Shown here: piece after piece, positions 27,890-64,000 of the stretch
How the letters are laid out: every line of letters begins with the position of its first letter
How positions within the stretch are numbered: position 1 is the first letter of the stretch
Source of the DNA: Mesostigma viride
Lineage: Eukaryota; Streptophyta; Mesostigmatophyceae; Mesostigmatales; Mesostigmataceae
Assembly: GCA_009746045.1 (NCBI GenBank)
Contig: RPFO01000392.1
Location: 2,773,681 to 2,837,680, forward strand
Length of the DNA stretch: 64,000 nt
Direction of reading: 5' to 3'
The notes under the pieces: model-generated
What the model was told of the DNA's origin: nothing
Seen by the model: the letters and a program-made list of their open reading frames with translations, nothing else
The model's database searches: none
Program-made: the position numbers and the translations under genes

Positions 27890-29513
27890 TGCTATTAAAA
27901 AATTAAAATTAAATTATAACATGCCTCCGTGGCCAGGGAGGTCATGTAGCACATATTTCATGATGGATGGGGTGGAGGAAGCCGCGTGATCGAACTATCC
28001 TATCACTCTATCTAGAAAATCCTAACTACACTACTCATCAAAACGCCTCCTCCGCTTGGGGGGAGGTGGCTTGCCCACAGGGTCGGGCGTGTGCGCCTTG
28101 ACAATCTTCTTCCACCGCGTCTTGTCCTGCATGGCAGTCCAAAGACGGGAGAGATCGAGAGTGGAGGCGGTGCTCAAACTGGGCTGGGACCACTAGGTCG
28201 TCCAGCAACATCTGAACGTAGTTGGTGACAGGTTTCCCTACCCTTTTGGGAATGTCCGCGGGGCCAGGCCAGGTCAGAATGTGCCGCCCTGGCTGGCCAA
28301 GCCGCTGGGGGCCGGCCAGACCAAGGGTGGAGTCGACCTGGCTGGTGCGGGCAAGGTGTCCTACAAATGCTATCCTACGCAGCCTGCCTAATCTCGTCCG
28401 AAACACGAGGCATGCCATGATACAAAGACTCTGATGACGGACGCTCGGAAAAACCTACGTTAAGGACCTGTTGGAGCATCCTGTAAACTGTGCCGTCGAG
28501 CCGAGCTGCCAGTTTGGGTGGGAGGGTCCACGCCTCGGCGCCATACGTGAGCACCGTGAGGACGAGGACCTTGAAGAGCATGCGCTTGCGGTGCCCGTCC
28601 AGGCCCTTCGAGCGCCAGTAGGGTGTGAGCGAACGGAGCTTGGCCCAGGCAAGGCCAATGCGGGTGTCCACATCGTCGGCGGTGTCAGGAAGCCAGCTCC
28701 CCAACAGCTTGAAGCGGTCGCGGAACGGGACCTCCGTCCCGTCGAGCAGGCGCGGCAGCGGTGGTTTACTGGATGCCCCTATCACCATCGCCTCAGTTTT
28801 GACACTAATCTCCAGCCCCACCGCCCGCGCCTCCAGGCCCACTGGCAGTCCAGTTAGGTCTGAATGTGCTCGGGGCTCTCGATGAGGGTGGTATCATCCG
28901 CATCAATCAGGTCGGCAAGGCGGTAACCAGGTCTAACCCCGCCGTGCTCTTTCACGTTAAGGATGTCCAAGCCTGGCTTGAAGTCCCCTTAATCTTGAGC
29001 AGTAAAGCGCGCACGTGCCCGGCGCATGACGTGATCCACGACAATAATGAACAGGTATGCGGGGACAGGACACAACCTTGCCACACCCCGTGGTGAAGGG
29101 GGAATGGTGGAGTGGTGTCCTCCGCAGTCCGCACTACTGCCTGTGAGCCCTCATACAGTCGGCGAATGGCAGCAATAAACGTTGGTGGCCACCCGATCGA
29201 TCCAGAGCTAGGATGGCCCAAAGAGCCTCCCAGAGAACCGTGTCAAAGGCCTTGATATAGTCAACAAAAATGAAGACCAGCGGCAAACTGTCACCTGGGG
29301 GAAGTCGACGCACCTCCTCCATCAACCGGCGCGCGACAAACACAGCCATGACAGTGTTACGACCACGACGGACACCCATCTGAGACTCACCCAGGTGTGC
29401 ACGTGGGTCCAGCGCGGCGCGGAGCCTGTGCAGCATCATGCGCATGAAGACCTTCAGCGCGGCGCTCTGGAGGCAGACACCCCGGTATAGTTGCCGGGGT
29501 CAGCAGCAGAGCC
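27890..29513 (-). mobile_element. Family A LINE, minus strand, 3' portion
   Basis: Reading on the minus strand, the element enters at 29513 inside the RT domain. It carries motif A (FVDYIKAFDTV, about 29260), motif B (GVWQGCVLSP, about 29070), the thumb (GLEISVKTEAM, about 28800) and the conserved tail to about 28040. It ends in TAATTT repeats near 27893. Its 5' part is displaced to 63353-64000 by the copia array: GAGCC at 29509-29513 and 63353-63357 is the duplicated target. Unlike the copy at 16.4 kb it keeps the motif A aspartate, but frameshifts are present. Confidence 0.88.
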
Positions 29514-29591
29514 AGTTAGTCTCCATGCTTTGCTGTAGACTAAGTCTCAAAGGCATTGTGAATACAACGTATGAATAAGCCTTGTAAACCT

Positions 29592-31429: not shown

Positions 31430-32539
31430 AAACCTACGTTGGTATGTGAATATAAATACCACGTGGGCTATGCAGATAGGAATGCTAGTCGAGTCGCATA
31501 CGTTTCCCTAGATAGGTACTTTGGTGACTGGGGTACGTGACAGATGTCAGTACCCAGTATACGTAGTGTCCTGTCATTGGACGGTACTAGAGTATCCTAG
31601 ATAGGGACCGTACAGTTGCAGCGTGCATTGATCTGTGATCACACGATGCAGTGACTAGACTGCTACCTGTCATCGTGCGGCCTCGGGCCAACGGTCTGCA
31701 CCCAACGGTCACTGGCGGCGCAGCCAGTGAGAGGAACGTTGATAAAGGGTAAACCTATTTTCTAATGAACCAAGCAATTCATTGCTCTCAGCACACAGTG
31801 TTCTCAAGCAATATACCACGTCGTTCATTTCTCATTTCCTAACTTGAATTTTATAAACGCTCTTCAGCAACATCAAACTCAACAACGGTTCAAACCGGAC
31901 TGGAAAAAAAAAAAAAAAAAAAAAAGAAAAGAAAAAAAAGAGAAAAAGAAACTATATCTTGGGGACGACGATGATGATCAGCGTCGTCCGCCAGACAACA
32001 GGGCACCGGCTGATGTCGGTGCGCCTGCATGCAATAACAACACTAGGAACTCAATTTCTGAGAAAATTCTCAAAAACCCTCAATTTTCTCACCCCTTTGA
32101 GAAAAAAGGTGAGAAAAGTGAGAAAAATCTCAATTTTTTTCCGCAAACGCTAGGCAACAAAATCTCACCAGGGTGAGATTTTGGTGAGAAAAAGGGGGTT
32201 TGGGTGAGATTTGGGTGAGAAAAAACCCTAAAGTGAGAAAAAAGGTGAGAATGGGTGAGAAAAAGTGAGAAAAAGTGAAAAAATTGAGAAGTTTCTCACC
32301 AACACGAGAAAAATCACTAACACGAGAAAAATCACAAGTCAACGTGGTGAGAAATTTCTCACCAAGAGTGTAACACGAGAAAAATCACGAGCTTTATTTC
32401 ATTAAGTCCTTAACGTGAAAAAAAACTCAACACCACTTTGATATGCATTATAGGGTGCACCACAAAGGTGCAATATAGGGTTCATACAATATAAAACAGC
32501 ACATCATTCCATAAACAATGCTGTCATGCCCAAATTAAA

Positions 32540-33843: not shown

Positions 33844-33916
33844 TGTGTCAGCACAGCGATCCCCCCTGCATCCAAACAAAGGCACACCGATAACCAAGCA
33901 AAGAGTATGCAAATGT

Positions 33917-35940: not shown

Positions 35941-36919
35941 GCGGTTCCACTTTCAAGTCAGCATGTGACGCCCTGTCGACCGGCCCGCTTTGTTAGCTAG
36001 CTACCATATAGTATTTGATGATAGGCATTGAATGCGGAAGATGTCATAACGCCATAACAGACTGTGTTGAACAGGCATATTTGAATGCCGAAGATGTCAT
36101 AACGCCATAACAGACTGTGTTGAACAGGCATATTTGAATGCCGAAGATGTACATAACGCCATAACAGTGTTGAATAGTTGAATCAACGGGTTCTTTCAGC
36201 TGTAAACATTAAAATTATTCAAACATTTAATGAAAAAATCATTATTGTTCGTGCTGTTTTGAACAGCGGTTGTTACTGGCACTGCATGCATGTGTCTGCT
36301 GCCAGCATATTGTATTATGGCTGTGTTTCTCATCGCTGTGTTTTCTCGCTTTTCTCACTTTTCTCACGTCCTGATTTTCTCACTTTTCTCACGTCCTGAT
36401 TTTCTCACTTTTCTCACGTTTCACACCTCCCGTTTTTCTCACTTATCTCACGTCCTGTTTTTTGAGATTTTTCTCACGTTTTTCCCCTTTTTTCACCTTT
36501 TTGGGGCAATCTCACCCGGGTGAGATTGCCCTTTTCTCACCCATTCTCACCCATTTCTCACCCTATTTTCTCACTTTTCTCACCCATTCTCACCCATTTC
36601 TCACCCTTTTTCTCACCCATCTCACCCTTTTTCTCACCTTTTCTCACCCATTCTCAAAGCCGAGTTCCTAGTGAACAAAACAAAAAGAAGACAAAGAAAA
36701 AGAAAACAAAAGAACAACCATGACAATACCAGCCAGGTGGAGGGTCCGGCTGCCGCGAGGCAGTCCGAACAACCCCCCTCCCCTGTGCGCCAGCCGGTGG
36801 CGGAGCCGGTTCCCCTACGGGGCACCGACCAACCCTCTTCCCCGGCGGCTGCGACAGCAGCACCCACTGCTGGAGCAGCCATGGCGGCGGCAATGCGGCA
36901 GGAAAACAACCCCCCAGGA

Positions 36920-45373: not shown

Positions 45374-46660
45374 TGCCTTGCTTCCTTTGTTAGACCCTTG
45401 CTTGACCTTTGTTAGTCCCTTGCTTCCTTAGTTAGCCACTCCTCCTTGCATGCTTGCAATTGCTTGCTTGCTGAATTTAATTAGTCATGCCTTGCTTCCT
45501 TTGTTAGACCCTTGCTTGACCTTTGTTAGTCCCTTGCTTTCTTTGTTGGCCACTCTTCCTTGCATGCTTGCAATTGCTTGCTTGCTGAATTTAATTAGTG
45601 CCTTGCTTCCTTTGTTAGACCCTTGCTTGACCTTTGTTAGTCCCTTGCTTTCTTTGTTAGCCACTCTTCCTTCAATGCTTGCAATTGCTTGCTTGCTGAA
45701 TTTAATTAGTGCCTTGCTTCCTTTGTTAGACCCTTAACTTGACCTTTGTCAGTCCCTTGCTTTCTTTGTTACCCACTCTTCCTTCAATGCTTGCAATTGC
45801 TTGCTTGCTGAATTTTATTAGTCCCTTGCTTCCTTTGTTAGCCACTCTCTTCCTTGAATGCTTGCAATTACTTGCTTGCTGAATTTAATTCAGTCCCTTG
45901 CTTCCTTTGTTAGACCCTTGCTTGACCTTTGTTAGTCCCTTGCTTTCTTTGTTAGCCACTCTTCCTTCAATGCTTGCAATTGCTTGCTTGCTGAATTTAA
46001 TTAGTGCCTTGCTTCCTTTGTTAGACCCTTGCTTGACCTTTGTTAGTCCCTTGCTTCCTTTGTTAGGCCCTTGCTTGACCTTTGTCAGTCCCTTGCTTCC
46101 TTTGTTACCCACTCTTCCTTCAATGCTTGCAATTGCTTGCTTGCTGAATTTTATTAGTCCCTTGCTTCCTTTGTTAGCCACTCTCTTCCTTGAATGCTTG
46201 CAATTACTTGCTTGCTGAATTTAATTCAGTCCCTTGCTTCCTTTGTTAGGCACTTGCTTCCTTTGTTAGCCACTGTCTTCCTTGCGCGCATGTACGCTTG
46301 CTTGCTGAATCTAATTGGTCCCTTGCTTCCTTTGTTAATTAGGCCCTTGCTTCCTTTGTTGGCCACTCACTTCCTTGCGCGCATGTACCCTTGCTGAATT
46401 TAATTAGTCCCTTGCTTCCTTTGTTAGGCCCTTGCTTTACCTTTGTTAGGACCTTGATTCCTTTGTTAGCCACTCTCTTCCTTGCACGCATGTACGCTTG
46501 CTTGCTGAATTTTATTAATTAGTCCCTAGCTTACTTGGTTATGCCCATGCTTCCTTTGTAAGCCACTCTTCCTTGCACGCTTGCAGTTGCTGAATATAAT
46601 TAGTCCCTTGCTTCCTTTGATACGACCTTGCCTACTTGCATGGTTAGGCCATTGCTTCCC
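45374..46660 (+). repeat. Minisatellite of CCTTGCTTCCTTTGTTAG units
   Basis: Units of roughly 40 bp built from CCCTTGCTTCCTTTGTTAG and CTTGCAATTGCTTGCTTGCT repeat in higher-order blocks of about 120 bp. It lies in what is probably a long intron of the plus-strand gene. Confidence 0.85.
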
Positions 46661-47169
46661 TGCATGCTAGAGAACTTCATGAATTGAAATAGACCCCTGT
46701 TAAGTGAGACAACTAACTTGTTGATTCGTCCTTGCTGCCTCGCGTGGTTGCTTGCTGCATTCCATTTGTCCCTTGCTTCCTTGGTTAGTCCGGCCTTAAG
46801 ATAATTATCGGCATTGTGCTCTTGTTGTCCATTTAAGGCCCGTGCTCCTCTTTCCGGCATGCGGTTAGTTTTAACGCCGACATCTGTGTGGTATCGTTCC
46901 TTGACTGCCCTATCAGTGTCGTTCTTCTACAGCTTCCGACCTGCATTTGTTTTGGTGCCAAAAGCTTATTCAGTCAGGTACATTTTTTCCTTGATTGCCT
47001 TTATCTCTGTCGTTTCCCTCTAGTTTCCCGCCTGCATTTAGTTTTAACGCCGACATCTATGTGGTGTCATTCCTGAAGTGCCTTTAGCTGTGTTGTTTTC
47101 CTCTAGCATGGCTGGCCACCCACTCAGGTTTGTCCCTTAATTATCCCTCCATCCCACCTCATTCAGCCA

Positions 47170-47390
47170 TCATGGCTGGCCTATGTATATGGATGTCATA
47201 GAATAATAAATGTTGAGGATTCATGTTCCCTTCTCGCAATCATGGCTGGCCTATGTACATGGATGTCAAAGAAAAATATATGTTGAGGATTCAGGCTCTA
47301 TTAATGTCATCATGGCTGGCCTACGTACATGGATGTCAAAGAATAATAAATGTTGAGGATTCAGGCTCCCTTGCGGTCATCGTGGCTGGC
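47170..47390 (+). repeat. Four 62-bp tandem units
   Basis: ATCATGGCTGGCCTATGTA followed by TGGATGTCA and AATGTTGAGGATTCA repeats about four times. A separate 40-bp duplication (ATGCTCGAGCCTCTAACCCG) lies at about 47585-47660. Confidence 0.8.
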
Positions 47391-47926
47391 CTACCTGCCT
47401 TTGTTTTGATGCCGAAGTTGAACGCCCTTCACCGCTGGCTAGCACGCCGGCGATGGAGACGGGATTTTTGTTGTTTGGGGAACCGATTGTGGGAGGCTGA
47501 GCCCGCAGCCGCCACTGATTGCTATTGAACCCTTGCTGCTGGCCAGGCCGCAAGGAGCTCAGCGGCGCGGCGCTAACCGATAAGGCATGCTCGAGCCTCT
47601 AACCCGAGACTACCGGTAGGCTACCCGATAGTGCATGCTCGAGCCTCTAACCCGAGACTACCGGCACTCAGCGGATCTGTGCTACCGAGGGCGACGGTTC
47701 TCTGACCGTCCCGGCGCGCACTGGCTTCCGTACCTTGCTTAGGCACCGACTAGCATCTAGACACCAATCTTTGATGCCCACCTGACTAGGCGCCCAGGCC
47801 GGCGACTACCGGCCAGCGGATAGATGCCACTCGGGAGCACAACTGCCGAACGCTGATTTGGGTACTGTTCCTTGATTGTCTTTTTTTGTGTTGTTTTGTG
47901 ATATCACATATTATACACCTTGACAG

Positions 47927-50552
47927 GTTGCACCCATGAAGCCCGCAGTGCCAAATCCCCAGAAGATGACGGTGCAAGAGAAGATTGAAGAGCTGGAGGC
48001 GCAGCTGGCTGAGCTGAAAGGCAGCACGAAGGAAATCAAAAAGGAAGCACGCCCCAAGGTGGCGCCACCTCCACTGCCCATTCGTGTAGCCGAGCCGCCG
48101 GTGTTCGAGCCGAAGTTGCCTGCAAGCACTGTTCTAAAGGCGTCGCTTGCAACCATGCCGGTGGCCGCTGCGCAAACTCCTTCCCCACAGCTGGTGCCTC
48201 AGTCCGAGAAGGCAGCCTTCGTGCAGCCGCCTGCGGTGCCGGTCATCCCTGCGCAACCCCATTCGCCTAAGCTGCCGGTGGGCCCGCGCGAGCAGGCAGC
48301 CCCGAGGCAGCCACCTGCGGTGCCAGCAAAGGCCAAGTCTCGTAAGGGCTCTGCACCTCCGCCGCTCGAGCGTGGCCTCCGCTACTTCCTGGATGAAGTG
48401 AGACCAGGCGCGGTTATCTTGCCCAAGCCCGCGGACCTCATAAACGACGTTCCGGTGGGTGCGGTCATCGCCCAAAAGTTCAAATACACCCCCTTGGCAA
48501 GGAATGGACAGGTTGAGTTTGGCTGGGAGCTGGCCGAGGTGGTTGTACTAGACAAGGAGGAGAAATACCCCTGGGAGGCTTGCTTTGTCGAGAGGAACGG
48601 CGTGCGATCCAAGGGTCTCGGATTTGATTTCCGCGAGCTGCATTATGGGGAGGAGGGGTCGAGTGTATACTCATGGGTGCTGGTTCAGGGTATCACACCG
48701 GCCGACCTTGACAGGCGGAGCAAGGAGTTGCGCGCCGCGACCGAGGCGGAAAAGGCCAAGGCGGGGAAGGAGAAGGCGGCAACCAACGGGAAGGCGACCA
48801 CCAAGGGGAAGGCGACTACCAAGGGGAAGGCGACCACCAAGGGGAAGGCGGCTGAAGATGAGGCAGCCGAGGATGAGGCGGCCGAGGATGAGGCGGCCGA
48901 GGATGAGGCAGCCAAGGGAAACGCGGCCAAGGGGAAGGTAGCCGATGAGGAGGCGGCCGAGAAGGAGGCGGTCCAAATGGGAAGCGTAGCGAAGGCTGGT
49001 TCACGACGAGAGAAACGCAGCGCTGCCGATCCAAGAGTGCAGCCGCGCACGAAGCTCGCAAAGCTGCCTGCAGCAGCACCACCACCGCCGGCAGCGCCGA
49101 CAATCCTGCCCCCGACAGTACTCCCTTCAACAACCGCCACAGCATCGGTGCCATCATCCATGTTGCCTGCGCAAGGAGCAGATGAAGACATGGCCTCGGT
49201 AGAGGCGGCGCTGGCCGCGCTCCTTGCCAAGAAGGAGGCAATGATTGCAGCCAGGAAGGCGGCCGATGTCTCCAATGCAACCCCTGAAGTAAGTCTCAGG
49301 AGTGGGTGGGGTTGTAAACCTGGACATGGTTTATGAGTGGTGTGATTTGGGGGTTGCAAAGAGGGGTAGTTCATGAGTGGGCAGAGTGGGGGCTGTGGGA
49401 AATAGGGGTTATTTATGAGTGGAGGGGCTGTAAGCTGGGTTGTTTTTTAGTGGGCTGAGCAGGGGCTGTTGGGGGGGTTGTCAACCAGGTTATTTATGAG
49501 TGGGCTGGGCGGGGGCTGTTAGAAACTGGGATTATTTATGAGTGGGCAGTGTGTGAAGCTGTTTTTTTTTTTTTTTAAACGACTGATTGAGGGGGTTGTA
49601 AACACTTGGGATTATTTATGAGGGGGGGGGGACTGTAAACTCAGTGGCATTTGAGGTGGCTGAGTGGTGCACTCGTTTTTCATAGCCCCCGGGGGCTGTG
49701 GAGAACAGGGGTTAATATGAGGGGGAAGGTTGTAAACTGCATGAGTGGGCTGAGTGGGGGGCTGTAGGAACCAGGGCCGGGTTATTTATGAGAGGGGGGT
49801 CAAACTGGGGTTGTTTATGTCAGAGTGGGCTGAGTGGGGCTGTGTGAAACGGGGATAATGTATGGGTGGGGGGGTTGTATTTAACTGGATTGCTTATGAG
49901 TGGGCTCAGTGAGCAGGGGCTGTCAGAAACTGGATTATTTATGAGTAGGCAGTGTGTGAAAAGTGGGATTTTTTTTGTTTTTGATGACTGATTGAGGGGG
50001 TTGTAAACCATTTGGATTATTATGAGGGGGGTGGGTGGAAACTGGGTGGTTTATCAGTGGGGCTGAGTGGTGACTGTGGGAAACTGGGGTTATTCATGAG
50101 AGGGGGTGTCTAAACTGGGGTGGTTTATGTCAGAGTGGGCTGAGTGGGGGCTGTGGGAAACTGGGATAGTGTATGAGTGGGGGAGGTCTAAACTGGGTTG
50201 TTCATTAGTGGGCTGAGCGGGGGCTGTCAGAAACTGGGATTATTTATGAGCGGGAAGTGTGTGAAACTGGAAATTTTTTTTTTTTTTTTAATGACTGATT
50301 GCAATTTTACAACCCCCTCAAGAGGGGGTTGTCAACACTGGGATTGTGAGTTTGTGGGCGGGGGCCGGAGGCCGCCTTGCTGTTCTTGAGACCCATTCAA
50401 GGGTGTTCTAGGCAAGACGTTGATTTTGATGTGCAACATTTCTATTGATCGAGGCTGTGAAAGGCTATGACACATCTTGAGTGTTTGAACTTGCCTTTTT
50501 TTTCTGCTCACAGGGAGACAAGGTGCCGGCCTCCCAGTCGTCGTCCATTTAA
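47927..50552 (+). CDS. Unknown CACTA accessory protein, main exons
   Basis: Not recognised. Exon 47927-49288 follows a CTTGACAG acceptor and joins exon 50514-50552 through a GTAAGT...GCTCACAG intron in phase (TPE/GDKVPASQ), ending at TAA. From ATG 47936 this gives 464 residues. An N-terminal coiled coil (EKIEELEAQLAELKG) is followed by a proline-rich region and a compact, possibly conserved domain (about residues 140-260, including FVERNGVRSKGLGFDFRELH). Three KGKATT and four AAEDE repeats follow, then a second coiled coil (VEAALAALLAKKEAMIAA). It may be spliced to the 44600 exon. Coiled coils plus a basic/acidic repeat suggest a multimeric DNA-associated protein. Confidence 0.6.
49320..50340 (+). 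repeat. Degenerate minisatellite filling an intron
   Basis: Irregular units of about 45-55 bp with GGTTATTTATGAGTGGGCTG and GGGGCTGTGGGAAACTGGG repeat across nearly the whole intron 49289-50513. The strand is strikingly G/T-rich. Confidence 0.85.
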
Positions 50553-50814
50553 CATCGTCATCTAGTAGGCGCCACGGCTGCGCAGGTTTGTTTTTGTTTT
50601 CTTGATCTATATATCGAGCGCTTTCTTGTTCATGCATTGGTTACTAGGGACTAGGGTGCAGTGCTAGATGAGACAATTGACACCAACCACCCGTTCATGT
50701 TTCTTGCGCATGTGCGTTTTTTAATGCATTCCAGGAACATTCTGAGATTTCTGTCATGCAACGCCAAGCGCCAAGCCGGCGTTTGCAAATTGTCACTGAT
50801 CGATAATCACTGTT

Positions 50815-51028
50815 GAAGAATGAAGAATGAAGAATGAAGAATGAAGAATGAAGAATGAAGAATGAAGAATGAAGAATGAAGAATGAAGAATGAAGAATGA
50901 AGAATGAAGAATGAAGAATGAAGAATGAAGAATGAAGAATGAAGAATGAAGAATGAAGAATGAAGAATGAAGAATGAAGAATGAAGAATGAAGAATGAAG
51001 AATGAAGAATGAAGAATGAAGAATGAAG
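50815..51028 (+). repeat. About 30 copies of a 7-bp repeat
   Basis: GAAGAAT repeats almost perfectly for about 210 bases. Since 7 is not a multiple of 3, every frame reads the same seven-residue repeat (minus strand ILHSSFF), which makes long spurious open frames. Not a gene. Confidence 0.95.
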
Positions 51029-51099
51029 ATCTGTTGCACTTATCTTTATATTTGTAATAAAGAAATCGCGAGTTTTGCTTTTCATCCGTTTTGCTTTGG

Positions 51100-51695
51100 A
51101 ATGTGATCTGATATATCTGTGTGATATATCACGATATATCTGTGTGATATGTCATGATCGCCCGTGGTTTTATGTCACTGTTTTCTGCCCAGATTTATCA
51201 GTGATAATGTCACGAATTTGTCACCCTTTTTTTCGTGATATATCAGTGATAATGTCACGGATTTGTCACCCTTTTTTTCGTGATATATCAGTGATAATGT
51301 CACGGATTTGTCGCCCTTTTTTCGTGACATATCAGTGATAATGTCACGAATTTGTCACCCTTTTTTTCGTGATATATCAGTGATAATGTCACCGTCGGAT
51401 TTGTCACCCTTTTTTCGTGATAATGTCACGGATTATCAGTGATAATGTCACGGATTTTGTCAGTGCGTTTTGTCAAGTCGTGACATTGATATTTTGTGAT
51501 AATTTCCTTGTTTTTGTCACAAAGATAATCACAGAATATGCTGGTTTTATCACAAGATTTGTCACAAAATGTCACAGAATATCACAGTTTTGTCACAAAA
51601 AATCACAAAGTGTCACATTTTGTCACATCCACATCACAAAATGTCACGTGATATGTCACAAAATATCACAAAATGTCACACCCCCCTTCCTAGTG
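51100..51695. repeat. CACTA right subterminal repeats and TIR
   Basis: About five units of roughly 52 bp (CGTGATATATCAGTGATAAT then GTCACGGATTTGTCACCC) run into dense ATCACAAAATGTCACA text. The inverted terminus lies at 51660-51695. Confidence 0.85.
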
Positions 51696-51697
51696 GA

Positions 51698-52640
51698 GGC
51701 ACCGGCCCCGCGCCGGCCCCTGGGGCTTCCAGCGTAAGCAAGTCCGTTGCTTTCTTTCCTCATGCATGCTCTGATATAATGCTCAAGAGCGGTGGCTATC
51801 TTTTCAACATATCATAACCAAACAGAAAGCTATCGCTGCAGCATGAGGAGCATAGAAACGCTCCAGCTGTTATGTGATAAAAGCACTCCTGGCCTATCCC
51901 CATCGCCGGCGGTGGGCGGCCTGGGCTGGACGGCATATGCAAACGAGACAAGTATCACAGTCCACCCCAACGTGACTTATCTGAATGAATGTCATGTCTT
52001 TTGAACGCAGATCTCCCCATTTTATTTGGGATGAGTGTAAGGGTATTGTTGCTTTCTTGGCAGCACAGCCTCTACCCTCTAGGGAGACTGTTGATCCTCT
52101 CTATGTCAGGGCTGAGGGCCCTTAATCAAACCCACTGCTGTCAACTCCCTAGACATGGAGCTTGCCCAGCCGCCGCACATAATCAATAACGCATGCCGTA
52201 GTGGCAGAAGCCATTACCAAACGCATGTACTTGCGGGTAAAGACATGGCTGGTGCTAACGCTCAAGCAGCACCGGGAGGCAATAACAAGAAACACTAACA
52301 GAAAACAAACAAACAAACAAAACTGTTACCAAACCATGGTTGGTGTTGAGGCAGCACAGATGCTGTCCTCTCATTACAAGCAAACAAACGAAACTGTTAC
52401 CAAACCATGGTTGGTGTTGAGGCAGCACAGATGCTGTCCTCTCACTGCAAACAAACAAACGAAACTGTTACCAAACCATGGTTGGTGTTGAGGCAGCACA
52501 GCTTCTGTCCTCTCATTACAAGCAAACAAACGAAAATGCTACCAAACCATGGTGGGTTTTGAGGCAGCAAAGATACTGTCCTCTCAATCAATACAATGAA
52601 CAAACAAGAAAAGCTGCGATTAATTAATTAACAATAACAA
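51698..52640 (+). other. Copia leader continuation, copy 1
   Basis: Sequence after the CACTA matches 57758-58690 of copy 2. It contains a possible donor (CCAGC/GTAAGC, about 51730) and four 64-bp tandem units (about 52315-52580) with ACCAAACCATGGTTGGTGTT. No long frame is seen, so the gag gene may be spliced here. Confidence 0.6.
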
Positions 52641-52668
52641 CAACAACAACAACCGGCCCCAACAGGGC

Positions 52669-52737
<69 letters not shown>

Positions 52738-52929
52738 AGGCAACCTGGCAACCCTGGAAGGGTCAGGTGCCTGAGGTGCTTCCAGACGGGGCACAGCCGC
52801 AACCAGTGCAACCACAACCCTACACTGGTCAACAATGTGGATCTCTGCCCAGGCTGCCACTACACGAGGCACAACCTGGCCAGCTCCAGGCAGCCGTTGC
52901 AACAGGCCTCGCTACCCAAATCAATGTGA
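52640..52929 (+). CDS. gag: Copia gag 3' end with zinc knuckle, copy 1
   Basis: After a (CAA)n stretch read as poly-Asn, the frame encodes CLRCFQTGHSRNQC, a perfect CX2CX4HX4C nucleocapsid knuckle. A second Cys/His cluster (CPGCHYTRH) follows, ending at TGA 52927-52929. The knuckle binds RNA for packaging. The frame overlaps pol by about 150 bases, with pol one base ahead (+1). The gag start is not located. The (CAA)n run is longer here than in copy 2. Confidence 0.7.
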
Positions 52930-55900
52930 GTTCTCTCACCTTGCTTACTCTGAGGATGATGATCTCATTACCATTGGGGATGGCAGCCAGGGCATAATTG
53001 ATTTTGAGGCAGCAACCTTACTGTCCTCCCAACACCCTGTACTGGAACCTTACATAAAAGCACTAACCCCCACTGTTGACAACTCCATAGATATCAAGGA
53101 GCTTGCTCATCAGCTGCACCTAGCCATGGGTCATGAAACAGTGGCTGAGGAACTGGCCAGACGGCTGGGGGGTAGTAGCATGGGAAAACCTCTCAGGAAT
53201 GCAGTAAAACTGGCTAGACAACACTGTCAAGAATGTCAGTTTAATAACAGCCCCAAACCTAAAAAATGGCATACTGCAACTCCTTCCACCACTAGAGGCA
53301 TGATAGTGGGGGATGTGATGCACATCAACAAAGATGTCCAGCCCTACCTGATCCTAAAAGATTCATGGTCCAGGTTCACAGTAATGGAACCCCTACCTGG
53401 CATGTCTGCAGGGCAGCTACGTGTTGCACTCATGATTGCTTTACCCAGATTCTACCCAGTTGACAGAATTTTGCTTGATCAACAATTTTCTTGTCTGACT
53501 GACCTGGAAGGGTGTGAAGCAATAGAGATTGCTGGGCTGGAAGATCATGAGGGTCAGGGGGTCATTGAAAGAACCATCAGATCTGTCAAAACCCTACTAG
53601 CCAAAAATCCTTCCAAGGATGCTACTTCAGGGGTCTATTGTGACAGGGCACTCTGGTGTCATGAAATGTGCACAACCCTAAACATGAGACCTGTCTTGCA
53701 TGCCAAGTGGGGTGAAGTAATCCCAGCAGGCCTGCAGGCAGGTGTATATCCCCCAGAGGTGATAGCACTGTACAACACTGCACGTGCACAAACCTCAGCA
53801 AAACTGGCAGAAAAAGATAAAACCCATCCCAGGCCAGTATTCCAAAAAGGTGATCAAGTTCTCTATTACAAGGAAAACAGCTTTGGTAAGGTTGGAACTT
53901 GGCTAGGTCCAGTTACCATCCGTGGATTTACCAAAAAAAGCAAGACCGTGGAGGTCAAGCACAATATCAATGGGAAGCGTCACAGGGTGAGCTGTCATAG
54001 AATTAAGAAGTATTATTCTCCCATGGCAGACGTGCCTGGGGAAGAGTCTTTAAGCATGGACTCACTACTTCTATCTGGCAACTCCAGCATGCCCAGCAGT
54101 AGCCCTGAGCCACCAATTACTGCTGTTGACAGCACCACAGCACCCTCTGTGAACCCTTCCACCCTCAGTGAAGCCAGGCCCACTTCACAACCTGGGGATT
54201 GCTTAACCAGGCACGAGGTAGCTGGGTTGGAAGCATTAGCTCAGCCCCAAGGCACCAAATTGTCTGCCAACCCTCCCGCTCTGAGGTCAAGATTGGCAGT
54301 CGCCTTGCAAGCATTACACAGGTCACATAAGCAACAAGCTGCTGTGGCCGAAGGGTTGGCAAAAGTCTCAGCTGTGTGCACTAGTCAGGACCCCTGGACC
54401 CTGGCAATAGACACTCAGGCACAGGTCAGTGTGATCAGTGCACAAGCCATCCCTGGTCTTGAGATTGCACCTTCATTTTGGGCACGGGTGCAGGATTTCT
54501 CAGGCCAAAGCTCACTGGATGTAGTGGGACAGTGATGCTCCCTATACTTGGTATTCAGACACCCTTCCAGGTGGTGGAGGGGTACTCTGGTAACACCTTG
54601 TTGGGGGAACCTTTTGTATCCTATCCTGGGGTGCTTATCTCAGCTAATGAGCTCAGTGTCACAGGGGTGGGTGCAGTTCCTCTGGACCACTTTAAAATCC
54701 CTCTCTCCAGTATTGTCCCTGGTATGGATGCTGTCATCAAGGCAGTCAACACTCAGTATGCACCAGGGGAGATCCCTGATCTGGACAAGTTAGTGCACAG
54801 CCAGTTCCTCCATCCCTCAGCCTTTGGGCTGGGTAAGTGGGACATAGCCATGCACTCACCCCACCAAATCTCCCACGTCATACAAGAATGCAAAACACAA
54901 AAAGGGTTTACCAAGTGGCTGATGGCCATTGTCCACCAAGCCAGGCAGGAATGGGTCCTGCCCAACCCCAAAAACCCTCAATACAAACCTCCTGTCACCC
55001 CTTCATGGGACGTGCCAGAGGGAGCCAAAAAGCTCAGATTAAAATTTGTTCTCAAACAAAAACCACAAAAAGTGGGCTCCCCAATCTTCCATGCCAGACC
55101 ATGTGTCACAGAATTAAAGGGGACATCCACACTGCCAAAAGGGGAAACCTACACACCTGGGCTGCAACAAACCTCACTCAGGATCATGCTCTCCCTATTC
55201 CTCCACAACCTCAATGCAGGCCAAGACTATGTCTGCAAAGCCACTGATATTAAAAGGGCCTTCCTCAGGGGGGACCCAGAAAAGGCTGAATCTGTGTGGA
55301 AAGGGAAGGTGTACGTGGTAGACACCCCAGCTGTGTGGAAACCTTACATTGATGAGCCCCACCTGATCATCAACATTGGGGTGGAAGGGCTTGTCAGTGC
55401 CCCCAAAATTTTCAGAGACTCAGCAGAGGAAGTATTCCAAAAGCTCAAGGCCAGGTATGATGACCTGGACCCTTGCTTTTTTGTTGTACCCACCCCCTCT
55501 GGACTGCTGTTCTTTGTGTGGCATGGAGATGACCAACTCATTTGTGGGCCTAGAGCTGAGGTGGAAAATTTATTCAGCAGGTCCAGGAATCATATGAGAT
55601 TGGCAAACAGGTGGAATTGAGCACAACCCCCATCCAGTTCTGTGGCATCATGTTGCAGCTGCACAGGCAGCCAGATCAGTGGGTCTGCTCTCTCTCTCCT
55701 CCTGCAGAATATATTCAAGATTGTCTAGATCTGCTGCAACACAACTACCTCCCCTTACGCATGTGTGCCACTGTTCAGGGCAAACTGGGGTGGTGGTCAG
55801 CCATCTGTGGGGCTCCCTTAGCTGTCATCAGCAGGGTCACCCATGATGTTCTAGTCAAGATAAAATGCAGTCAAATCAGGAAGTTGGTCAATGACTGTCC

Positions 55901-56375
55901 CCCCCTCATCCTCCATGGCCTGAATCTGATGGAAGACATCCACATCCAATGTGTCATGGACAGCTCCATGGAGAGCAGAACAATGAATCAGATGGGGGCA
56001 CGGGAATCAGGGCTGTTTTTTCTCACCAACAGGTCAGATTACATGTCCCTCACTTCCTGGTACAGCAGGCTACACCGCAGAAAACCTGGCAGCAGCAACT
56101 CAGCTGAATGTCGTGCTGTGGTGTCTGCTGCATTGCATGCTCGTTCCCTGCAGCACATGCTCACCTGGCTACAAACCCAGGCAGGCAGCACATGCAATGT
56201 AATCTCACATCTCTACACTGACAGCTTTTCTGTGATCAGTTTTCTAACCAAGAAATCTGTTTCTGCTGCTGTCCACACTGACTTGGATTGGGTGATCCTC
56301 AAACAGGAGGCCACCTATTTTTCCAGCTGGACTCATGTGGATGATGAGGACAACCCCGGCCAGCAGACGCTCTAA
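52775..56375 (+). pseudogene. pol: Copia-like pol, copy 1, frameshifted
   Basis: The order is integrase, protease-like, RT, RNase H. The first frame runs to 54535 and holds the integrase HHCC zinc site, DDE core and a GPV/GPF-like C-terminal module, then reaches the protease. There a lost G relative to copy 2 (about 54531) ends it. The second frame (54478-55620) has the rest of the protease, RT motif A (TDIKRAFLRGD) and the active site as WHGDD (Asp pair 55528-55533) where most copia elements have YVDD. The third (55611-56375) is RNase H, with Asp 55959-55961, the SAE glutamate and Asp 56220-56222. A 5-base gain near 56357 destroys the final NPADALTK seen in copy 2. Confidence 0.85.
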
Positions 56376-56827
56376 CGAAGCTGCGGGATGCTGCTGGCCT
56401 ACCAGCTCCTCTTTCAGAACATGAACCCCTATGATATCAGCGTCAGTGTTTGAATAAAGGACTGGCCATAGCACAGTACACAACCACCACACCCCCTTAC
56501 CACAGCGATAGCTGCTGGGCGCCATAAAATTCAACACATTCGTTGTGGGGTGTGAGTACTGGCTAGGTCAGATTTGTATCCATTTGCAGCTTGAGGACAC
56601 AAGCTTTGTATACACTTACTTAATGTGTGCTCCAATAACTGGCCAAACCAGCCAGCTGTGTACACCTTATTTAATGTGCAATATAACACCTGGCCAGAAC
56701 AGCCAGCTGTAACCAACCTGGCTCAACCAGCCATGTCTCTTTTGTACCCCTAATCAACTTAAAAACAATAACAATAATGTTGGGGGTGCAGACCTGCATT
56801 AAGAAATTAATAATAAAACAATACTGG

Positions 56828-57316
56828 AGTTAGTCTCCATGCTTTGCTGTAGACTAAGTCTCAAAGGCATTGTGAATACAACGTACATGAATAAGCCTTG
56901 TAAACCTACGTTGGTATGTGAATATAAATACCACGTGGGCTATGCAGATAGGAATGCTAGTCGAGTCGCATACGTTTCCCTAGATAGGTACTTTGGGTAC
57001 TGGGGTACGTGACAGATGTCAGTACCCAGTATACGTAGTGTCCTGTCATTGGACGGTACTAGAGTATCCTAGATAGGGACCGTACAGTTGCAGCGTGCAT
57101 TGATCTGTGATCACACGATGCAGTGACTAGACTGCTACCTGTCATCGTGCGGCCTCGGGCCAACGGTCTGCACCCAACGGTCACTGGCGGCGCAGCCAGT
57201 GTGAGGAACGTTGATAAAGGGTAAACCTATTTTCTAATGAACCAAGCAATTCATTGCTCTCAGCACACAGTGTTCTCAAGCAATATACCACGTCGTTCAT
57301 TTCTCATTTCCTAACT
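56828..57316 (+). repeat. LTR2, central, intact
   Basis: This 489-bp LTR runs from AGTTAG to CTAACT. It serves as the 3' LTR of copy 1 and the 5' LTR of copy 2. It differs from LTR3 by a few bases, such as an extra CA near 56884 and GTGTGAGG against GTGAGAGG. Confidence 0.92.
56923..56930 (+). promoter_or_regulatory. LTR TATA box with adjacent CACGTG
   Basis: TATAAATA is followed directly by CCACGTGG, a G-box core. The pair is the same in all three LTRs (31448-31455 and about 62961-62968). It is the probable promoter of the retrotransposon. Confidence 0.6.
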
Positions 57317-57375
57317 TGAATTTTATAAACGCTCTTCAGCAACATCAAACTCAACAACGGTTCAAACCGGACTGG

Positions 57376-57406
<31 letters not shown>

Positions 57407-58690
57407 AAAAGAGAAAAAGAAACTATATCTTGGGGATGACGATGATGATCAGCGTCGTCCGCCAGACAACAGGGCACCGGCTGATGTCGGTGCGCCTGCA
57501 TGCAATAACAACAAAACAAAAAGAAGACAAAGAAAAAGAAAACAAAAGAACAACCATGACAATACCAGCCAGGTGGAGGGTCCGGCTGCCGCGAGGCAGT
57601 CCGAACAACCCCCCTCCCCTGTGCGCCAGCCGGTGGCGGAGCCGGTTCCCCTACGGGGCACCGACCAACCCTCTTCCCCGGCGGCTGCGACAGCAGCACC
57701 CACTGCTGGAGCAGCCATGGCGGCGGCAATGCGGCAGGAAAACAACCCCCCAGGAGGCACCGGCCCCGCGCCGGCCCCTGGGGCTTCCAGCGTAAGCAAG
57801 TCCGTTGCTTTCTTTCCTCATGCATGCTCTGATATAATGCTCAAGAGCGGTGGCTATCTTTTCAACATATCATAACCAAACAGAAAGCTATCGCTGCAGC
57901 ATGAGGAGCATAGAAACGCTCCAGCTGTTATGTGATAAAAGCACTCCTGGCCTATCCCCATCGCCGGCGGTGGGCGGCCTGGGCTGGACGGCATATGCAA
58001 ACGAGACAAGTATCACAGTCCACCCCAACGTGACTTATCTGAATGAATGTCATGTCTTTTGAACGCAGATCTCCCCATTTTATTTGGGATGAGTGTAAGG
58101 GTATTGTTGCTTTCTTGGCAGCACAGCCTCTACCCTCTAGGGAGACTGTTGATCCTCTCTATGTCAGGGCTGAGGGCCCTTAATCAAACCCACTGCTGTC
58201 AACTCCCTAGACATGGAGCTTGCCCAGCCGCCGCACATAATCAATAACGCATGCAGTAGTGGCAGAAGCCATTACCAAACGCATGTACTTGCGGGTAAAG
58301 ACATGGCTGGTGCTAACGCTCAAGCAGCACCGGGAGGCAATAACAAGAAACACTAACAGAAAACAAACAAACAAACAAAACTGTTACCAAACCATGGTTG
58401 GTGTTGAGGCAGCACAGATGCTGTCCTCTCATTACAAGCAAACAAACGAAACTGTTACCAAACCATGGTTGGTGTTGAGGCAGCACAGATGCTGTCCTCT
58501 CACTGCAAACAAACAAACGAAACTGTTACCAAACCATGGTTGGTGTTGAGGCAGCACAGCTTCTGTCCTCTCATTACAAGCAAACAAACGAAAATGCTAC
58601 CAAACCATGGTGGGTTTTGAGGCAGCAAAGATACTGTCCTCTCAATCAATACAATGAACAAACAAGAAAAGCTGCGATTAATTAATTAAC
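57317..58690 (+). other. Copia leader, copy 2, uninterrupted
   Basis: This stretch gives the empty sites of both CACTA insertions. It has an A/G-rich run at 57376-57420. A proline/alanine-rich frame at 57573-57795 is probably gag N-terminal coding (RQSEQPPSPVRQP...). A GTAAGC donor lies at about 57791 and the 64-bp tandem units at about 58373-58640. No standard tRNA-Met primer site is seen after the LTR. Confidence 0.6.
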
Positions 58691-58721
58691 AATAACAACA
58701 ACAACAACGGCCCCACAGGGC

Positions 58722-58781
<60 letters not shown>

Positions 58782-58973
58782 AGGCAACCTGGCAACCCTG
58801 GAAGGGTCAGGTGCCTGAGGTGCTTCCAGACGGGGCACAGCCGCAACCAGTGCAACCACAACCCTACACTGGTCAACAATGTGGATCTCTGCCCAGGCTG
58901 CCACTACACGAGGCACAACCTGGCCAGCTCCAGGCAGCCGTTGCAACAGGCCTCGCTACCCAAATCAATGTGA
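58690..58973 (+). CDS. gag: Copia gag 3' end with zinc knuckle, copy 2
   Basis: Same knuckle and stop (TGA 58971-58973) as copy 1, after a shorter poly-Asn stretch. The gag and pol frames again differ by +1 and overlap by about 150 bases, so the arrangement is conserved and not a chance mutation. Confidence 0.7.
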
Positions 58974-61900
58974 GTTCTCTCACCTTGCTTACTCTGAGGA
59001 TGATGATCTCATTACCATTGGGGATGGCAGCCAGGGCATAATTGATTTTGAGGCAGCAACCTTACTGTCCTCCCAACACCCTGTACTGGAACCTTACATA
59101 AAAGCACTAACCCCCACTGTTGACAACTCCATAGATATCAAGGAGCTTGCTCATCAGCTGCACCTAGCCATGGGTCATGAAACAGTGGCTGAGGAACTGG
59201 CCAGACGGCTGGGGGGTAGTAGCATGGGAAAACCTCTCAGGAATGCAGTAAAACTGGCTAGACAACACTGTCAAGAATGTCAGTTTAATAACAGCCCCAA
59301 ACCTAAAAAATGGCATACTGCAACTCCTTCCACCACTAGAGGCATGATAGTGGGGGATGTGATGCACATCAACAAAGATGTCCAGCCCTACCTGATCCTA
59401 AAAGATTCATGGTCCAGGTTCACAGTAATGGAACCCCTACCTGGCATGTCTGCAGGGCAGCTACGTGTTGCACTCATGATTGCTTTACCCAGATTCTACC
59501 CAGTTGACAGAATTTTGCTTGATCAACAATTTTCTTGTCTGACTGACCTGGAAGGGTGTGAAGCAATAGAGATTGCTGGGCTGGAAGATCATGAGGGTCA
59601 GGGGGTCATTGAAAGAACCATCAGATCTGTCAAAACCCTACTAGCCAAAAATCCTTCCAAGGATGCTACTTCAGGGGTCTATTGTGACAGGGCACTCTGG
59701 TGTCATGAAATGTGCACAACCCTAAACATGAGACCTGTCTTGCATGCCAAGTGGGGTGAAGTAATCCCAGCAGGCCTGCAGGCAGGTGTATATCCCCCAG
59801 AGGTGATAGCACTGTACAACACTGCACGTGCACAAACCTCAGCAAAACTGGCAGAAAAAGATAAAACCCATCCCAGGCCAGTATTCCAAAAAGGTGATCA
59901 AGTTCTCTATTACAAGGAAAACAGCTTTGGTAAGGTTGGAACTTGGCTAGGTCCAGTTACCATCCGTGGATTTACCAAAAACAGCAAGACCGTGGAGGTC
60001 AAGCACAATATCAATGGGAAGCGTCACAGGGTGAGCTGTCATAGAATTAAGAAGTATTATTCTCCCATGGCAGACGTGCCTGGGGAAGAGTCTTTAAGCA
60101 TGGACTCACTACTTCTATCTGGCAACTCCAGCATGCCCAGCAGTAGCCCTGAGCCACCAATTACTGCTGTTGACAGCACCACAGCACCCTCTGTGAACCC
60201 TTCCACCCTCAGTGAAGCCAGGCCCACTTCACAACCTGGGGATTGCTTAACCAGGCACGAGGTAGCTGGGTTGGAAGCATTAGCTCAGCCCCAAGGCACC
60301 AAATTGTCTGCCAACCCTCCCGCTCTGAGGTCAAGATTGGCAGTCGCCTTGCAAGCATTACACAGGTCACATAAGCAACAAGCTGCTGTGGCCGAAGGGT
60401 TGGCAAAAGTCTCAGCTGTGTGCACTAGTCAGGACCCCTGGACCCTGGCAATAGACACTCAGGCACAGGTCAGTGTGATCAGTGCACAAGCCATCCCTGG
60501 TCTTGAGATTGCACCTTCATTTTGGGCACGGGTGCAGGATTTCTCAGGCCAAAGCTCACTGGATGTAGTGGGACAGGTGATGCTCCCTATACTTGGTATT
60601 CAGACACCCTTCCAGGTGGTGGAGGGGTACTCTGGTAACACCTTGTTGGGGGAACCTTTTGTATCCTATCCTGGGGTGCTTATCTCAGCTAATGAGCTCA
60701 GTGTCACAGGGGTGGGTGCAGTTCCTCTGGACCACTTTAAAATCCCTCTCTCCAGTATTGTCCCTGGTATGGATGCTGTCATCAAGGCAGTCAACACTCA
60801 GTATGCACCAGGGGAGATCCCTGATCTGGACAAGTTAGTGCACAGCCAGTTCCTCCATCCCTCAGCCTTTGGGCTGGGTAAGTGGGACATAGCCATGCAC
60901 TCACCCCACCAAATCTCCCACGTCATACAAGAATGCAAAACACAAAAAGGGTTTACCAAGTGGCTGATGGCCATTGTCCACCAAGCCAGGCAGGAATGGG
61001 TCCTGCCCAACCCCAAAAACCCTCAATACAAACCTCCTGTCACCCCTTCATGGGACGTGCCAGAGGGAGCCAAAAAGCTCAGATTAAAATTTGTTCTCAA
61101 ACAAAAACCACAAAAAGTGGGCTCCCCAATCTTCCATGCCAGACCATGTGTCACAGAATTAAAGGGGACATCCACACTGCCAAAAGGGGAAACCTACACA
61201 CCTGGGCTGCAACAAACCTCACTCAGGATCATGCTCTCCCTATTCCTCCACAACCTCAATGCAGGCCAAGACTATGTCTGCAAAGCCACTGATATTAAAA
61301 GGGCCTTCCTCAGGGGGGACCCAGAAAAGGCTGAATCTGTGTGGAAAGGGAAGGTGTACGTGGTAGACACCCCAGCTGTGTGGAAACCTTACATTGATGA
61401 GCCCCACCTTATCATCAACATTGGGGTGGAAGGGCTTGTCAGTGCCCCAAAATTTTCAGAGACTCAGCAGAGGAAGTATTCAAAAAGCTCAAGGCCACGT
61501 ATGATGACCTGGACCCATGCTTTTTTGTTGTACCCACCCCCTCTGGACTGCTGTTCTTTGTGTGGCATGGAGATGACCAACTCATTTGTGGGCCTAGAGC
61601 TGAGGTGGAAAATTTATTCAGCAGGTCCAGGAATCATATGAGATTGGCAAACAGGTGGAATTGAGCACAACCCCCATCCAGTTCTGTGGCATCATGTTGC
61701 AGCTGCACAGGCAGCCAGATCAGTGGGTCTGCTCTCTCTCTCCTCCTGCAGAATATATCCAAGATTGTCTAGATCTGCTGCAACAACTACCTCCCCTTAC
61801 ACATGTGTGCCACTGTTCAGGGCAAACTGGGGTGGTGGTCAGCCATCTGTGGGGCTCCCTTAGCTGTCATCAGCAGGGTCACCCATGATGTTCTAGTCAA

Positions 61901-62494
61901 GATAAAATGCAGTCACATCAGGAAGTTGGTCAATGACTGTCCCCCCCTCATCCTCCATGGCCTGAATCTGATGGAAGACATCCACATCCAATGTGTCATG
62001 GACAGCTCCATGGAGAGCAGAACAATCAATCAGATGGGGGCACGGGAATCAGGGCTGTTTTTTCTCACCAACAGGTCAGATTACATGTCCCTCACTTCCT
62101 GGTACAGCAGGCTACACCGCAGAAAACCTGGCAGCAGCAACTCAGCTGAATGTCGTGCTGTGGTGTCTGCTGCATTGCATGCTCGTTCCCTGCAGCACAT
62201 GCTCACCTGGCTACAAACCCAGGCAGGCAGCACATGCAATGTATCTCACATCTCTACACTGACAGCTTTTCTGTGATCAGTTTTCTAACCAAGAAATCTG
62301 TTTCTGCTGCTGTCCACACTGACTTGGATTGGGTGATCCTCAAACAGGAGGCCACCTATTTTTCCAGCTGGACTCATGTGGATGATGAGGACAACCCAGC
62401 AGACGCTCTAACGAAGCTGCGGGATGCTGCTGGCCAACAGTACCAGCTCCTCTTTCAGAACATGAACCCCTATGATATCAGAGTCAGTGTTTGA
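58819..62494 (+). pseudogene. pol: Copia-like pol, copy 2, longest open frame
   Basis: One frame runs unbroken to 61641 from its first ATG at 58879. It has integrase HLAMGH (59161-59178) and HCQEC (59266-59280), and core aspartates at 59356 and 59521 and glutamate at 59611, a D-x54-D-x29-E spacing. The integrase C-terminal module (WLGPVTIRGF) follows, then a protease-like domain with IDTQAQ (60451-60468) and LLGEPF (60643-60660), and RT motif A (D at 61291). A one-base loss at a C-run near 61447 shifts the frame before the RT active site. RNase H (61655-62494) keeps SAE, the first part of YTDS and NPADALTK, with a one-base loss near 62243. Both copies also share a frame change before RNase H, near 55594 and 61637. 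Confidence 0.88.
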
Positions 62495-62868
62495 ATAAAT
62501 GACTGGCCATAGCACAGTACACAACCACCACACCCCCTTACCACAGCGATAGCTGCTGGGCGCCATAAAATTCAACACATTCGTTGTGGGGTGTGAGTGC
62601 TGGCTAGGTCAGATTTGTATCCATTTGCAGCTTGAGGACACAAGCTTTGTATACACTTACTTAATGTGTGCTCCAATAACTGGCCAAACCAGCCAGCTGT
62701 GTACACCTTATTTAATGTGCAATATAACACCTGGCCAGAACAGCCAGCTGTAACCAACCTGGCTCAACCAGCCATGTCTCTTTTGTACCCCTAATCAACT
62801 TAAAAACAATAACAATAATGTTGGGGGTGCAGACCTGCATTAAGAAATAAATAATAAAACAATACTGG

Positions 62869-63352
62869 AGTTAGTCTCCATGCTTTGCTGTAGACTAAGT
62901 CTCAAAGGCATTGTGAATACAACGTATGAATAAGCCTTGTAAACCTACGTTGGTATGTGAATATAAATACCACGTGGGCTATGCAGATAGGAATGCTAGT
63001 CGAGTCGCATACGTTTCCCTAGATAGGTACTTTGGGTACTGGGGTACGTGACAGATGTCAGTACCCAGTATACGTAGTGTCCTGTCATTGGACGGTACTA
63101 GAGTATCCTAGATAGGGACCGTACTGCAGCGTGCATTGATCTGTGATCACACGATGCAGTGACTAGACTGCTACCTGTCATCGTGCGGCCTCGGGCCAAC
63201 GGTCTGCACCCAACGGTCACTGGCGGCGCAGCCAGTGAGAGGAACGTTGATAAAGGGTAAACCTATTTTCTAATGAACCAAGCAATTCATTGCTCTCAGC
63301 ACACAGTGTTCTCAAGCAATATACCACGTCGTTCATTTCTCATTTCCTAACT
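62869..63352 (+). repeat. LTR3, right end of the array
   Basis: This 484-bp LTR ends CTAACT, followed immediately by the target duplication GAGCC (63353-63357). A 4-base loss near 63125 distinguishes it from LTR1 and LTR2. Confidence 0.92.
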
Positions 63353-64000
63353 GAGCCCTTCTTGTACAGCATGACGCGGATGGTCGTCTGGCACTCAGCA
63401 GGCGGAGGCTCGTCAGAGAGCAGGACACGGTTGCAGAACGCCAGCAGAAGATCCCTAACCGCCAGATCAGGGGTCTTCAGCAGCTCAGCAGAAAGGTGGT
63501 CGGCACCGACCGCCGCATCGTACCGCAGGCGAGCAAGGGCGCCGTCCAATTCCTTCAAAGTGAAGGGGGGGACGACGTCGTCAGTGGCAAGGCAGCCCTC
63601 CTGCAAGGCGGGGACTTGGTAGTCCGCGGCCGAGGAGGGGGGCGCTGGCGGCGGCGGGGGTCCGGCGACCCCGAGGCGGGCGGCCGTCTCGGGGTGAAGC
63701 GGCGGGGGGGGGGCGCGAGCCCCACCGGTCAAGGAAACATTGTGGGCCAACCAGCGGTCAAGGCTGACCGGCGCCGTGCCGTCCCCCGTGTGCTCCACCG
63801 GGGACGTGCGCTGCCGCCGGCCGCCGAGCCGGTCGAGGTGGTACCACATGTCCTTGCCCTGGTTGCGAGCCTGGCAGGCCTTGGCATCCGCGATGCACTG
63901 GGCCGCCTCCGCTTCCTGAGCGTGCTCGTAGGCCGCCACGAGGGCGGCCTTGAGCACTGGTTTCTGCAGCGGGTCCCGGTTATGCTTGGCGGTGCCGGGC
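63353..64000 (-). mobile_element. Family A LINE, minus strand, displaced 5' part
   Basis: The minus strand encodes the ORF2 linker and start of RT (LDGALARLRYDAAVGADHLS..., RVMLYKKGS). It breaks exactly where the copia array begins and resumes at 29513. Homologous sequence on the plus strand lies at about 15560-16210. It runs off the window edge. Confidence 0.88.

Follow-up and report, generated by a model that had tools for sequence, protein, structure and literature searches.

Can the integrase of a long terminal repeat (LTR) retrotransposon stand ahead of its protease, and does such an order belong to a family or to one disturbed locus? The question is raised by 64,000 nucleotides (nt) of the streptophyte Mesostigma viride (GenBank assembly GCA_009746045.1, contig RPFO01000392.1, positions 2,773,681 to 2,837,680 of the forward strand), here called the window, which holds two copies of an element whose pol region runs from integrase through a retropepsin-like segment to reverse transcriptase (RT) and ribonuclease H (RNase H). 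The element is real, abundant and unusual, an LTR retrotransposon of an order unlike that of the textbook families. Our reading, to which we give a probability of about 0.72, is a family built as Gag, zinc knuckle, integrase, a retropepsin-like (retropepsin-derived) domain, copia-type RT and RNase H. The window was taken from an assembly of 440 Mb in 2243 contigs, and the genome-wide searches cover that assembly.

An initial annotation of the window had proposed this order of integrase, retropepsin-like segment, copia-type RT and RNase H, and the corresponding motifs were located in both copies. By translated motifs the right copy reads HHCC, D, D, E, W-L-G-P, a linker, IDTQAQVSVI...LLGEPFV, RT and RNase H, and the left copy has the same order, with motifs at 53117-56354.

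58809..58853, + strand: CCHC zinc knuckle, right copy, by translation, in a frame that differs from that of the integrase
59161..59283, + strand: integrase HHCC motif (HX4HX30CX2C), right copy, by translated motif
59350..59622, + strand: DDE region, right copy, with D at 59356, D at 59521 and E at 59611 (D-D gap of 54 residues, D-E gap of 29)
59869..60072, + strand: integrase C-terminal module (GDQV...W-L-G-P...RIKKYY), right copy, GPY/F-like by eye, W-L-G-P at 59941-59958
60430..60720, + strand: retropepsin-like segment, right copy, IDTQAQ at 60445-60468 and LLGEPFV at 60643-60663, PF13975 at E 0.10-0.14, with a relative in locus L045
61276..61580, + strand: copia-type RT motifs, right copy, at 61276-61308 and 61557-61580 with a frame break between them
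61992..62494, + strand: RNase H, right copy, by motif only (61992-62416), with HVDDEDNPADALTK at 62375-62416
53117..54016, + strand: integrase-like module (HHCC, DDE, C-terminal module), left copy, by motifs, in open reading frame (ORF) 52775-54535
54401..54618, + strand: retropepsin-like segment, left copy, frame-broken inside (ORFs 52775-54535 and 54463-55620)
55231..55536, + strand: copia-type RT motifs, left copy, RVT_2 at E 1.4e-4 on ORF 54463-55617
55950..56354, + strand: RNase H motifs, left copy, by motif only

The same annotation had read the region in a single frame, which holds from the integrase to the first part of RT: one open frame of 940 amino acids (aa) at 58819-61641, whose first ~45 codons cover the zinc knuckle out of frame, ends within RT, and the remaining part of RT, like RNase H, is read in other frames.

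The integrase-before-protease order holds across the genome and not only in the window. A genome search with the protease segment returned 4494 candidates, of which 150 were scored, all at 99%; twenty of those 150 loci (at most 10 kb each) were taken for their long open frames, and so are not a random sample, one of them lying at a contig end with 4.9 kb and at least one (L038) containing a run of N. Of the 20 places that the search gave on contigs C1-C80, 19 have an HHCC-type motif 1232-1236 nt upstream of the protease segment, on the same strand. Among the twenty loci taken, both LTRs are present in 14, a single LTR in four and none in two. Every one of the 14 two-LTR copies is bounded by equal 5-bp target site duplications (TSDs), which points to integrase-type insertion, and their LTRs measure 471-477 bp, with 0-3 substitutions and 0-7 gap columns between the members of a pair. 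The LTR termini of these 14 copies are AGTTAG...CTAACT and not TG...CA, the latter being usual, though not obligatory, in LTR retrotransposons. Pol occupies one frame of 1380 or 1381 aa with the same domain order in 10 of the 14; the other four have frames of 1271, 1621, 1711 and 2063 aa, the last of these (L042) holding gag and pol together and ending inside RNase H. In complete copies the longest gag frame measures 882 aa. Two LTRs with an equal short TSD, the marks of an LTR retrotransposon, were both found, and in its workings the family is that of an LTR retrotransposon whose polymerase is copia-type. The protease segment shows zero amino-acid changes in 52 copies, a figure that was not used to argue for selection since the copies were picked by protease similarity.

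A true protease hidden upstream in the gag frame, which the initial annotation had named as one of the findings that would overturn its reading, was looked for and not found in the stretches scanned. Ahead of the integrase, the window stretches 57313-59150 and 51691-53106 contain no D[ST]G in any of their three forward frames, and neither does the gag frame of six two-LTR copies, where a single DSG, out of the gag frame, stands a long way before the pol opening; a Pfam scan of two copies found no protease upstream of the integrase. For these stretches the claim that no protease motif precedes the integrase was upheld.

On the profile evidence the RT is copia-type, as had been proposed: RVT_2 matches at E 1.4e-4 (left copy) and 2.4e-4, both below the curated cut-off, and pol gives E 1.7e-5 with a Copia element of the same genome as against E 1.2 with a Gypsy element. 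RT of the right copy is frame-broken and reaches an RVT_2 E of 0.075 only. Among RVT_2 candidates in the genome 150 of 1981 were scored and all those listed lie above the cut-off, and L045 has, on the minus strand at 7789-9999 and so in the same 10 kb, the RT-RNase H of an ordinary Copia element (RVT_2 E 4e-51). For the integrase, the DDE-type residues HHCC, D, D and E are present by motif only, with a D-E spacing of 29 that is shorter than DD35E; an exact HX4HX30CX2C arose in 22 of 20000 shuffles of pol, and 9 of the 20000 had D..D..E following it as well. The GPY/F-like character of the integrase C-terminus is suggestive only, resting on a W-x-GP tail judged by eye, and the same grade applies to RNase H, whose motifs were likewise seen by eye and whose region does not match the in-genome Copia significantly. 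The end motif DNPADALTK, which we take to resemble Copia RNase H, has no profile match.

The IDTQAQ...LLGEPFV segment is very probably retropepsin-derived, judging by motifs and profile comparisons, and the odds lean slightly towards its being an active protease. Submitted alone to Pfam (24736 models), its sole match at E<=10 is PF13975, at E 0.14 and 0.10 over positions 9-89 of the 92 in the profile, the scores of 13.2-13.7 bits being under the curated cut-off of 28.2. By our own reckoning the chance of this one expected model is about E/24736, uncorrected for the several segments submitted. PF13975 covers the same profile positions in the Gypsy protease of L048, at E 9.6e-13. The window and L045 segments, combined into one profile and set against another made from the Gypsy protease and ASPRV1, gave P 0.0064 over 87 columns and a local P of 0.0036 over 32 columns, in a small sample, and shuffle tests of the segment against ASPRV1 gave 11 and 6 of 1000.

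L045 represents a second family, found as a relative at the edge of an inserted copy of the window (main) family, with 33% identity over 243 aa from the linker through the protease into the pre-RT region. Within the protease segment the two families are 42% identical and have D-T, QVS(I/V)I, G and LLG in common. When L045 was used as the query, 138 of 5380 candidates were scored, nearly all at 99%, and the modal open frame at such places is 1208 aa. The DNPADALTK pattern, with the main-family codon excluded, occurs at 1458 places (0 in the control), and stands 2206-2208 nt downstream of the L045-type segment at 13 of 13 places (contigs among the first 100 listed), being exactly 2208 nt downstream and in frame at 10 of them. 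If the spacing to the end is as in the main family, about 430 codons are left ahead of the L045 query in the 1208-aa frame, which is integrase-sized room; the L045 copy itself has 307 open codons there (588 minus 281). An LLGEPFV pattern excluding the main-family CCT codon was found at 123 places against 2 in the control, and the first 46 divide between two further codon versions, of which one includes a single-base variant; these may be diverged families. On contig C1, HLx-hydrophobic-GH matches come in repeated pairs with a spacing of about 10.2 kb, as though they lay in the LTRs of another large element.

A number of results weigh against the reading we prefer. Neither the integrase core, its C-terminal module with the W-x-GP tail, nor RNase H has a relevant Pfam match, and the integrase has none in the PDB (RNase H was not included in the PDB search). 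No tRNA (transfer RNA) primer site or polypurine tract was evident by eye beside the LTRs, no tRNA set having been compared. In the second family, an integrase was sought by an HLx-hydrophobic-GH pattern, but none of the first 100 of 1916 places (control 559) showed it at the distance expected, nor did any of the first 100 of 1514 with another such pattern (control 131), and a narrower pattern gave one match, as did its control. For the protease-like segment, comparison with the in-genome Gypsy protease alone was null, both by hhalign (E 0.15, 25 columns) and in shuffles (865 and 375 of 1000), whereas the pairing of this Gypsy protease with ASPRV1 scored above all 1000 shuffles. PF13975 is absent from whole-frame Pfam scans at E<=1 (the 940-aa and 2063-aa frames), and the L045 segment, submitted by itself, matches no Pfam model at E<=10. 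A PDB profile search placed a retroviral protease only as its second match, at E 2.1, and a plain PDB search with the segment gave nothing relevant. AlphaFold, run on two window segments without relatives, gave pLDDT (predicted local distance difference test) values of 44.9 for the retropepsin-like segment and 35.3 for the other, and the models were unused; Foldseek on the former returned one retroviral protease at rank 46 (E 4.9, not meaningful). Finally, the aspartic motif is DTQ in 20 of 20 loci and DTN in L045, never DTG there, so that neither the D-[ST]-G of retropepsins nor a curated-level profile score was found in the segment.

The initial claim of a retropepsin therefore gains support from sub-threshold PF13975 and the small-sample profile tests, but it is unproven and the motif is DTQ, not DTG. 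Of the checks which that annotation had proposed, profile searches yielded RVT_2 and the sub-threshold PF13975 with no relevant integrase or RNase H match, and structure prediction gave models of too low a confidence to show a retropepsin or another fold. Relatives were sought in viral contigs, genome contigs and phage collections and none was confirmed; a Gypsy protease query in plasmids returned none.

How these results are to be explained turns largely on the segment. The order could be as we read it and the retropepsin-like domain catalytically dead, having lost the glycine and serving as a structural or dimerisation part, with a host protease cutting the polyprotein or the polyprotein working uncut. 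In favour of this account, both families have DTQ or DTN, whereas DTG or DSG is retained by two Gypsy elements from this assembly; the catalytic Asp, the Thr and the LLG loop are nevertheless kept in both families, no other protease was found in gag, and both families exist in many near-identical copies, those dated being young. We regard a dead domain as possible but doubtful. Less probable still, and in our view unlikely, is that the segment is an unrelated beta-rich linker domain in an element without a protease, giving integrase, linker, RT and RNase H. The absence of a match up to the curated threshold, the null comparison with the in-genome Gypsy protease and the failure of AlphaFold and Foldseek to give a retropepsin of weight would fit such a linker, but the one Pfam model out of 24736 that matches is that of the expected family, and it spans the entire domain, the profile P values are 0.0036-0.0064, and D-T, QVSxI, G and LLG are kept in two families.

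That the odd order was created locally, by rearrangement or as a chimera of two elements, might be suspected from the window, where the copies are in tandem and altered in gag. The initial annotation had dismissed this because both copies show the order, a reason that does not stand, as the tandem lies between one duplication and its two copies are one event and not independent witnesses. Its conclusion does stand: the order occurs at 19 of 20 genome places and in two-LTR copies, and a local origin is rejected for the family as extremely improbable.

Comparison with known systems bears out the claim that the order fits neither Copia nor Gypsy, although the initial annotation had missed a precedent for integrase before protease. 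In the part of a 2009 survey consulted (PMC2774666), the integrase lies downstream of the protease in all Ty1/Copia elements then known and in Gmr1, and downstream of RNase H in most other elements, with a reversed remnant in REM1; it is lost in most caulimovirids and lies ahead of gag in PVCV. An integrase between gag and protease is absent from that source's list of integrase positions. No published description of the integrase-protease-RT order was recognised among the papers listed in the searchable literature, subscription literature and Repbase being outside that scope. The window family resembles Ty1/Copia in its RVT_2-type RT followed by RNase H as the last domain of pol, and in its HX4HX30CX2C finger, the same formula being printed for a Copia element in the portion of PMC3587641 consulted. 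It differs in placing integrase before protease instead of following protease, integrase, RT and RNase H, and in its W-x-GP tail, DTQ motif, AG..CT LTR ends and LLG loop (LLG also in the L045 family), where the same part of PMC2774666 gives Copia integrases no GPY/F module and Copia proteases LLS, with few exceptions. Since the Copia order and the LLS motif are both lacking, we do not file the family as an ordinary Copia member.

With Ty3/Gypsy the family has in common an LLG/ILG-type protease loop and, by eye, the GPY/F-like integrase tail, but the RVT_1-type RT and the integrase after RNase H that characterise Gypsy were not found, and the RT comparison with the in-genome Gypsy is not significant. 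The caulimovirid PVCV is a virus without LTRs. Its integrase lies ahead of gag and hence ahead of the protease, so that our order is not wholly without parallel (PMC2774666, part consulted), although in the window family the integrase lies between gag and protease. Gmr1-type Gypsy elements are a precedent for a moved integrase, which in Gmr1, however, is downstream of the protease (PMC2774666, likewise). Troyka, as far as the consulted part of PMC12440569 describes it, is a lineage set apart partly by non-TG/CA termini, but has CG..CG termini and 3-bp TSDs, and is a sister of Gypsy and its relatives with an RT that is not copia-like.

How gag and pol are joined was compared in the 19 copies that cover the junction. 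Fifteen have CAG GGG GGG CAC (G7), with pol in the -1 frame; three (L036, L039 and L042) have G8 and fused gag-pol frames, and in L032 a nearby deletion fuses the frames. The G7/G8 run (L031 4269 and equivalents) decides whether the two frames coincide. The natural reading of these sequences is that a -1 slip on G_GGG_GGG would join gag to pol.

In complete copies the frames of gag (up to 882 aa) and pol (~1381 aa) overlap; on the family structure that we favour, pol would be made by the -1 slip on the G7 run or, at G8, from frames already fused. The retropepsin-like domain may then dimerise in the Gag-Pol particle and free itself and its neighbours by cleavage, and reverse transcription followed by DDE integration would proceed as in other LTR elements. 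The window copies, which lack a normal gag, could have been moved by proteins from complete copies. The order is probably older than the split between the main and L045 families, and may have arisen when a non-copia-like integrase-protease unit was brought ahead of a copia-type RT-RNase H, or when the protease moved. The mosaic is the bolder reading; a more cautious one takes the family for a Copia that was rearranged and whose motifs have drifted. Only tentatively would we take both families as a separate mosaic lineage, ranking beside Copia and Gypsy or as a new deep Copia branch, that combines copia-type RT-RNase H and AG..CT ends with an integrase-protease unit of non-copia character (the GPY/F-like tail and LLG) and an active DTQ/DTN protease.

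The copies examined have near-identical LTRs, and that the families are abundant, and young in dated copies, suggests that the order can work, and hence that filters may hide real lineages. Should the DTQ/DTN protease prove active, it would test how fixed the retropepsin DTG motif is.

At the locus itself, the left element is tiled in order by the right one in blastn (29514-29591, 31430-32042, 36674-36919 and 51695-57316), the two being 99.1% identical over 5628 columns. The left copy is most simply understood as an element of full length, interrupted by three nested insertions, whose 3' LTR is common with the right copy. The right element spans 56828-63352, with LTRs of 489 and 484 bp. GAGCC (5 bp) stands directly before 29514 and directly after 63352, which makes the locus an LTR-internal-LTR-internal-LTR tandem inside a single 5-bp duplication.

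29509..29513, strand not applicable: outer 5' TSD GAGCC, equal to 63353-63357
29514..29591, + strand: left element, first part of its 5' LTR (AGTTAG...), by blastn, interrupted by a nested insertion at 29592-31429
31430..32042, + strand: left element, remainder of its 5' LTR and the internal bases next to it, blastn 99.0%, followed by a nested insertion at 32043-36673
36674..36919, + strand: internal piece of the left element, blastn 100%, followed by a nested insertion at 36920-51694
51695..57316, + strand: remainder of the left element up to its 3' LTR, blastn 99.1%, 5628 columns
56828..57316, + strand: LTR common to the left (3') and right (5') elements, AGTTAG...CTAACT, by sequence
57317..58754, + strand: right copy, gag region altered and unmatched by blastn in complete copy L043, with tandem repeats of 71-bp period
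62869..63352, + strand: 3' LTR of the right element, by sequence
63353..63357, strand not applicable: outer 3' TSD GAGCC, by sequence

From the zinc knuckle onward the window copies are 97-98% identical to the complete copy L043, but their gag has no blastn match to it, other sequence being present there, and they look like gag-altered, non-autonomous derivatives. Tandem repeats with a 71-bp period lie in the altered gag of both copies, at 52234-52657 and 58292-58715, and an array with a 14-bp period (50758-51072) adjoins the left copy. Many direct and inverted repeats occur at 12447-29377 and 63388-63988, the inverted arms being 83-100% complementary; these are perhaps, as a guess, pieces of an element like a long interspersed nuclear element (LINE). 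On the minus strand, an ORF at 41022-42179 matches DUF4218 (PF13960) at E 9.2e-7.

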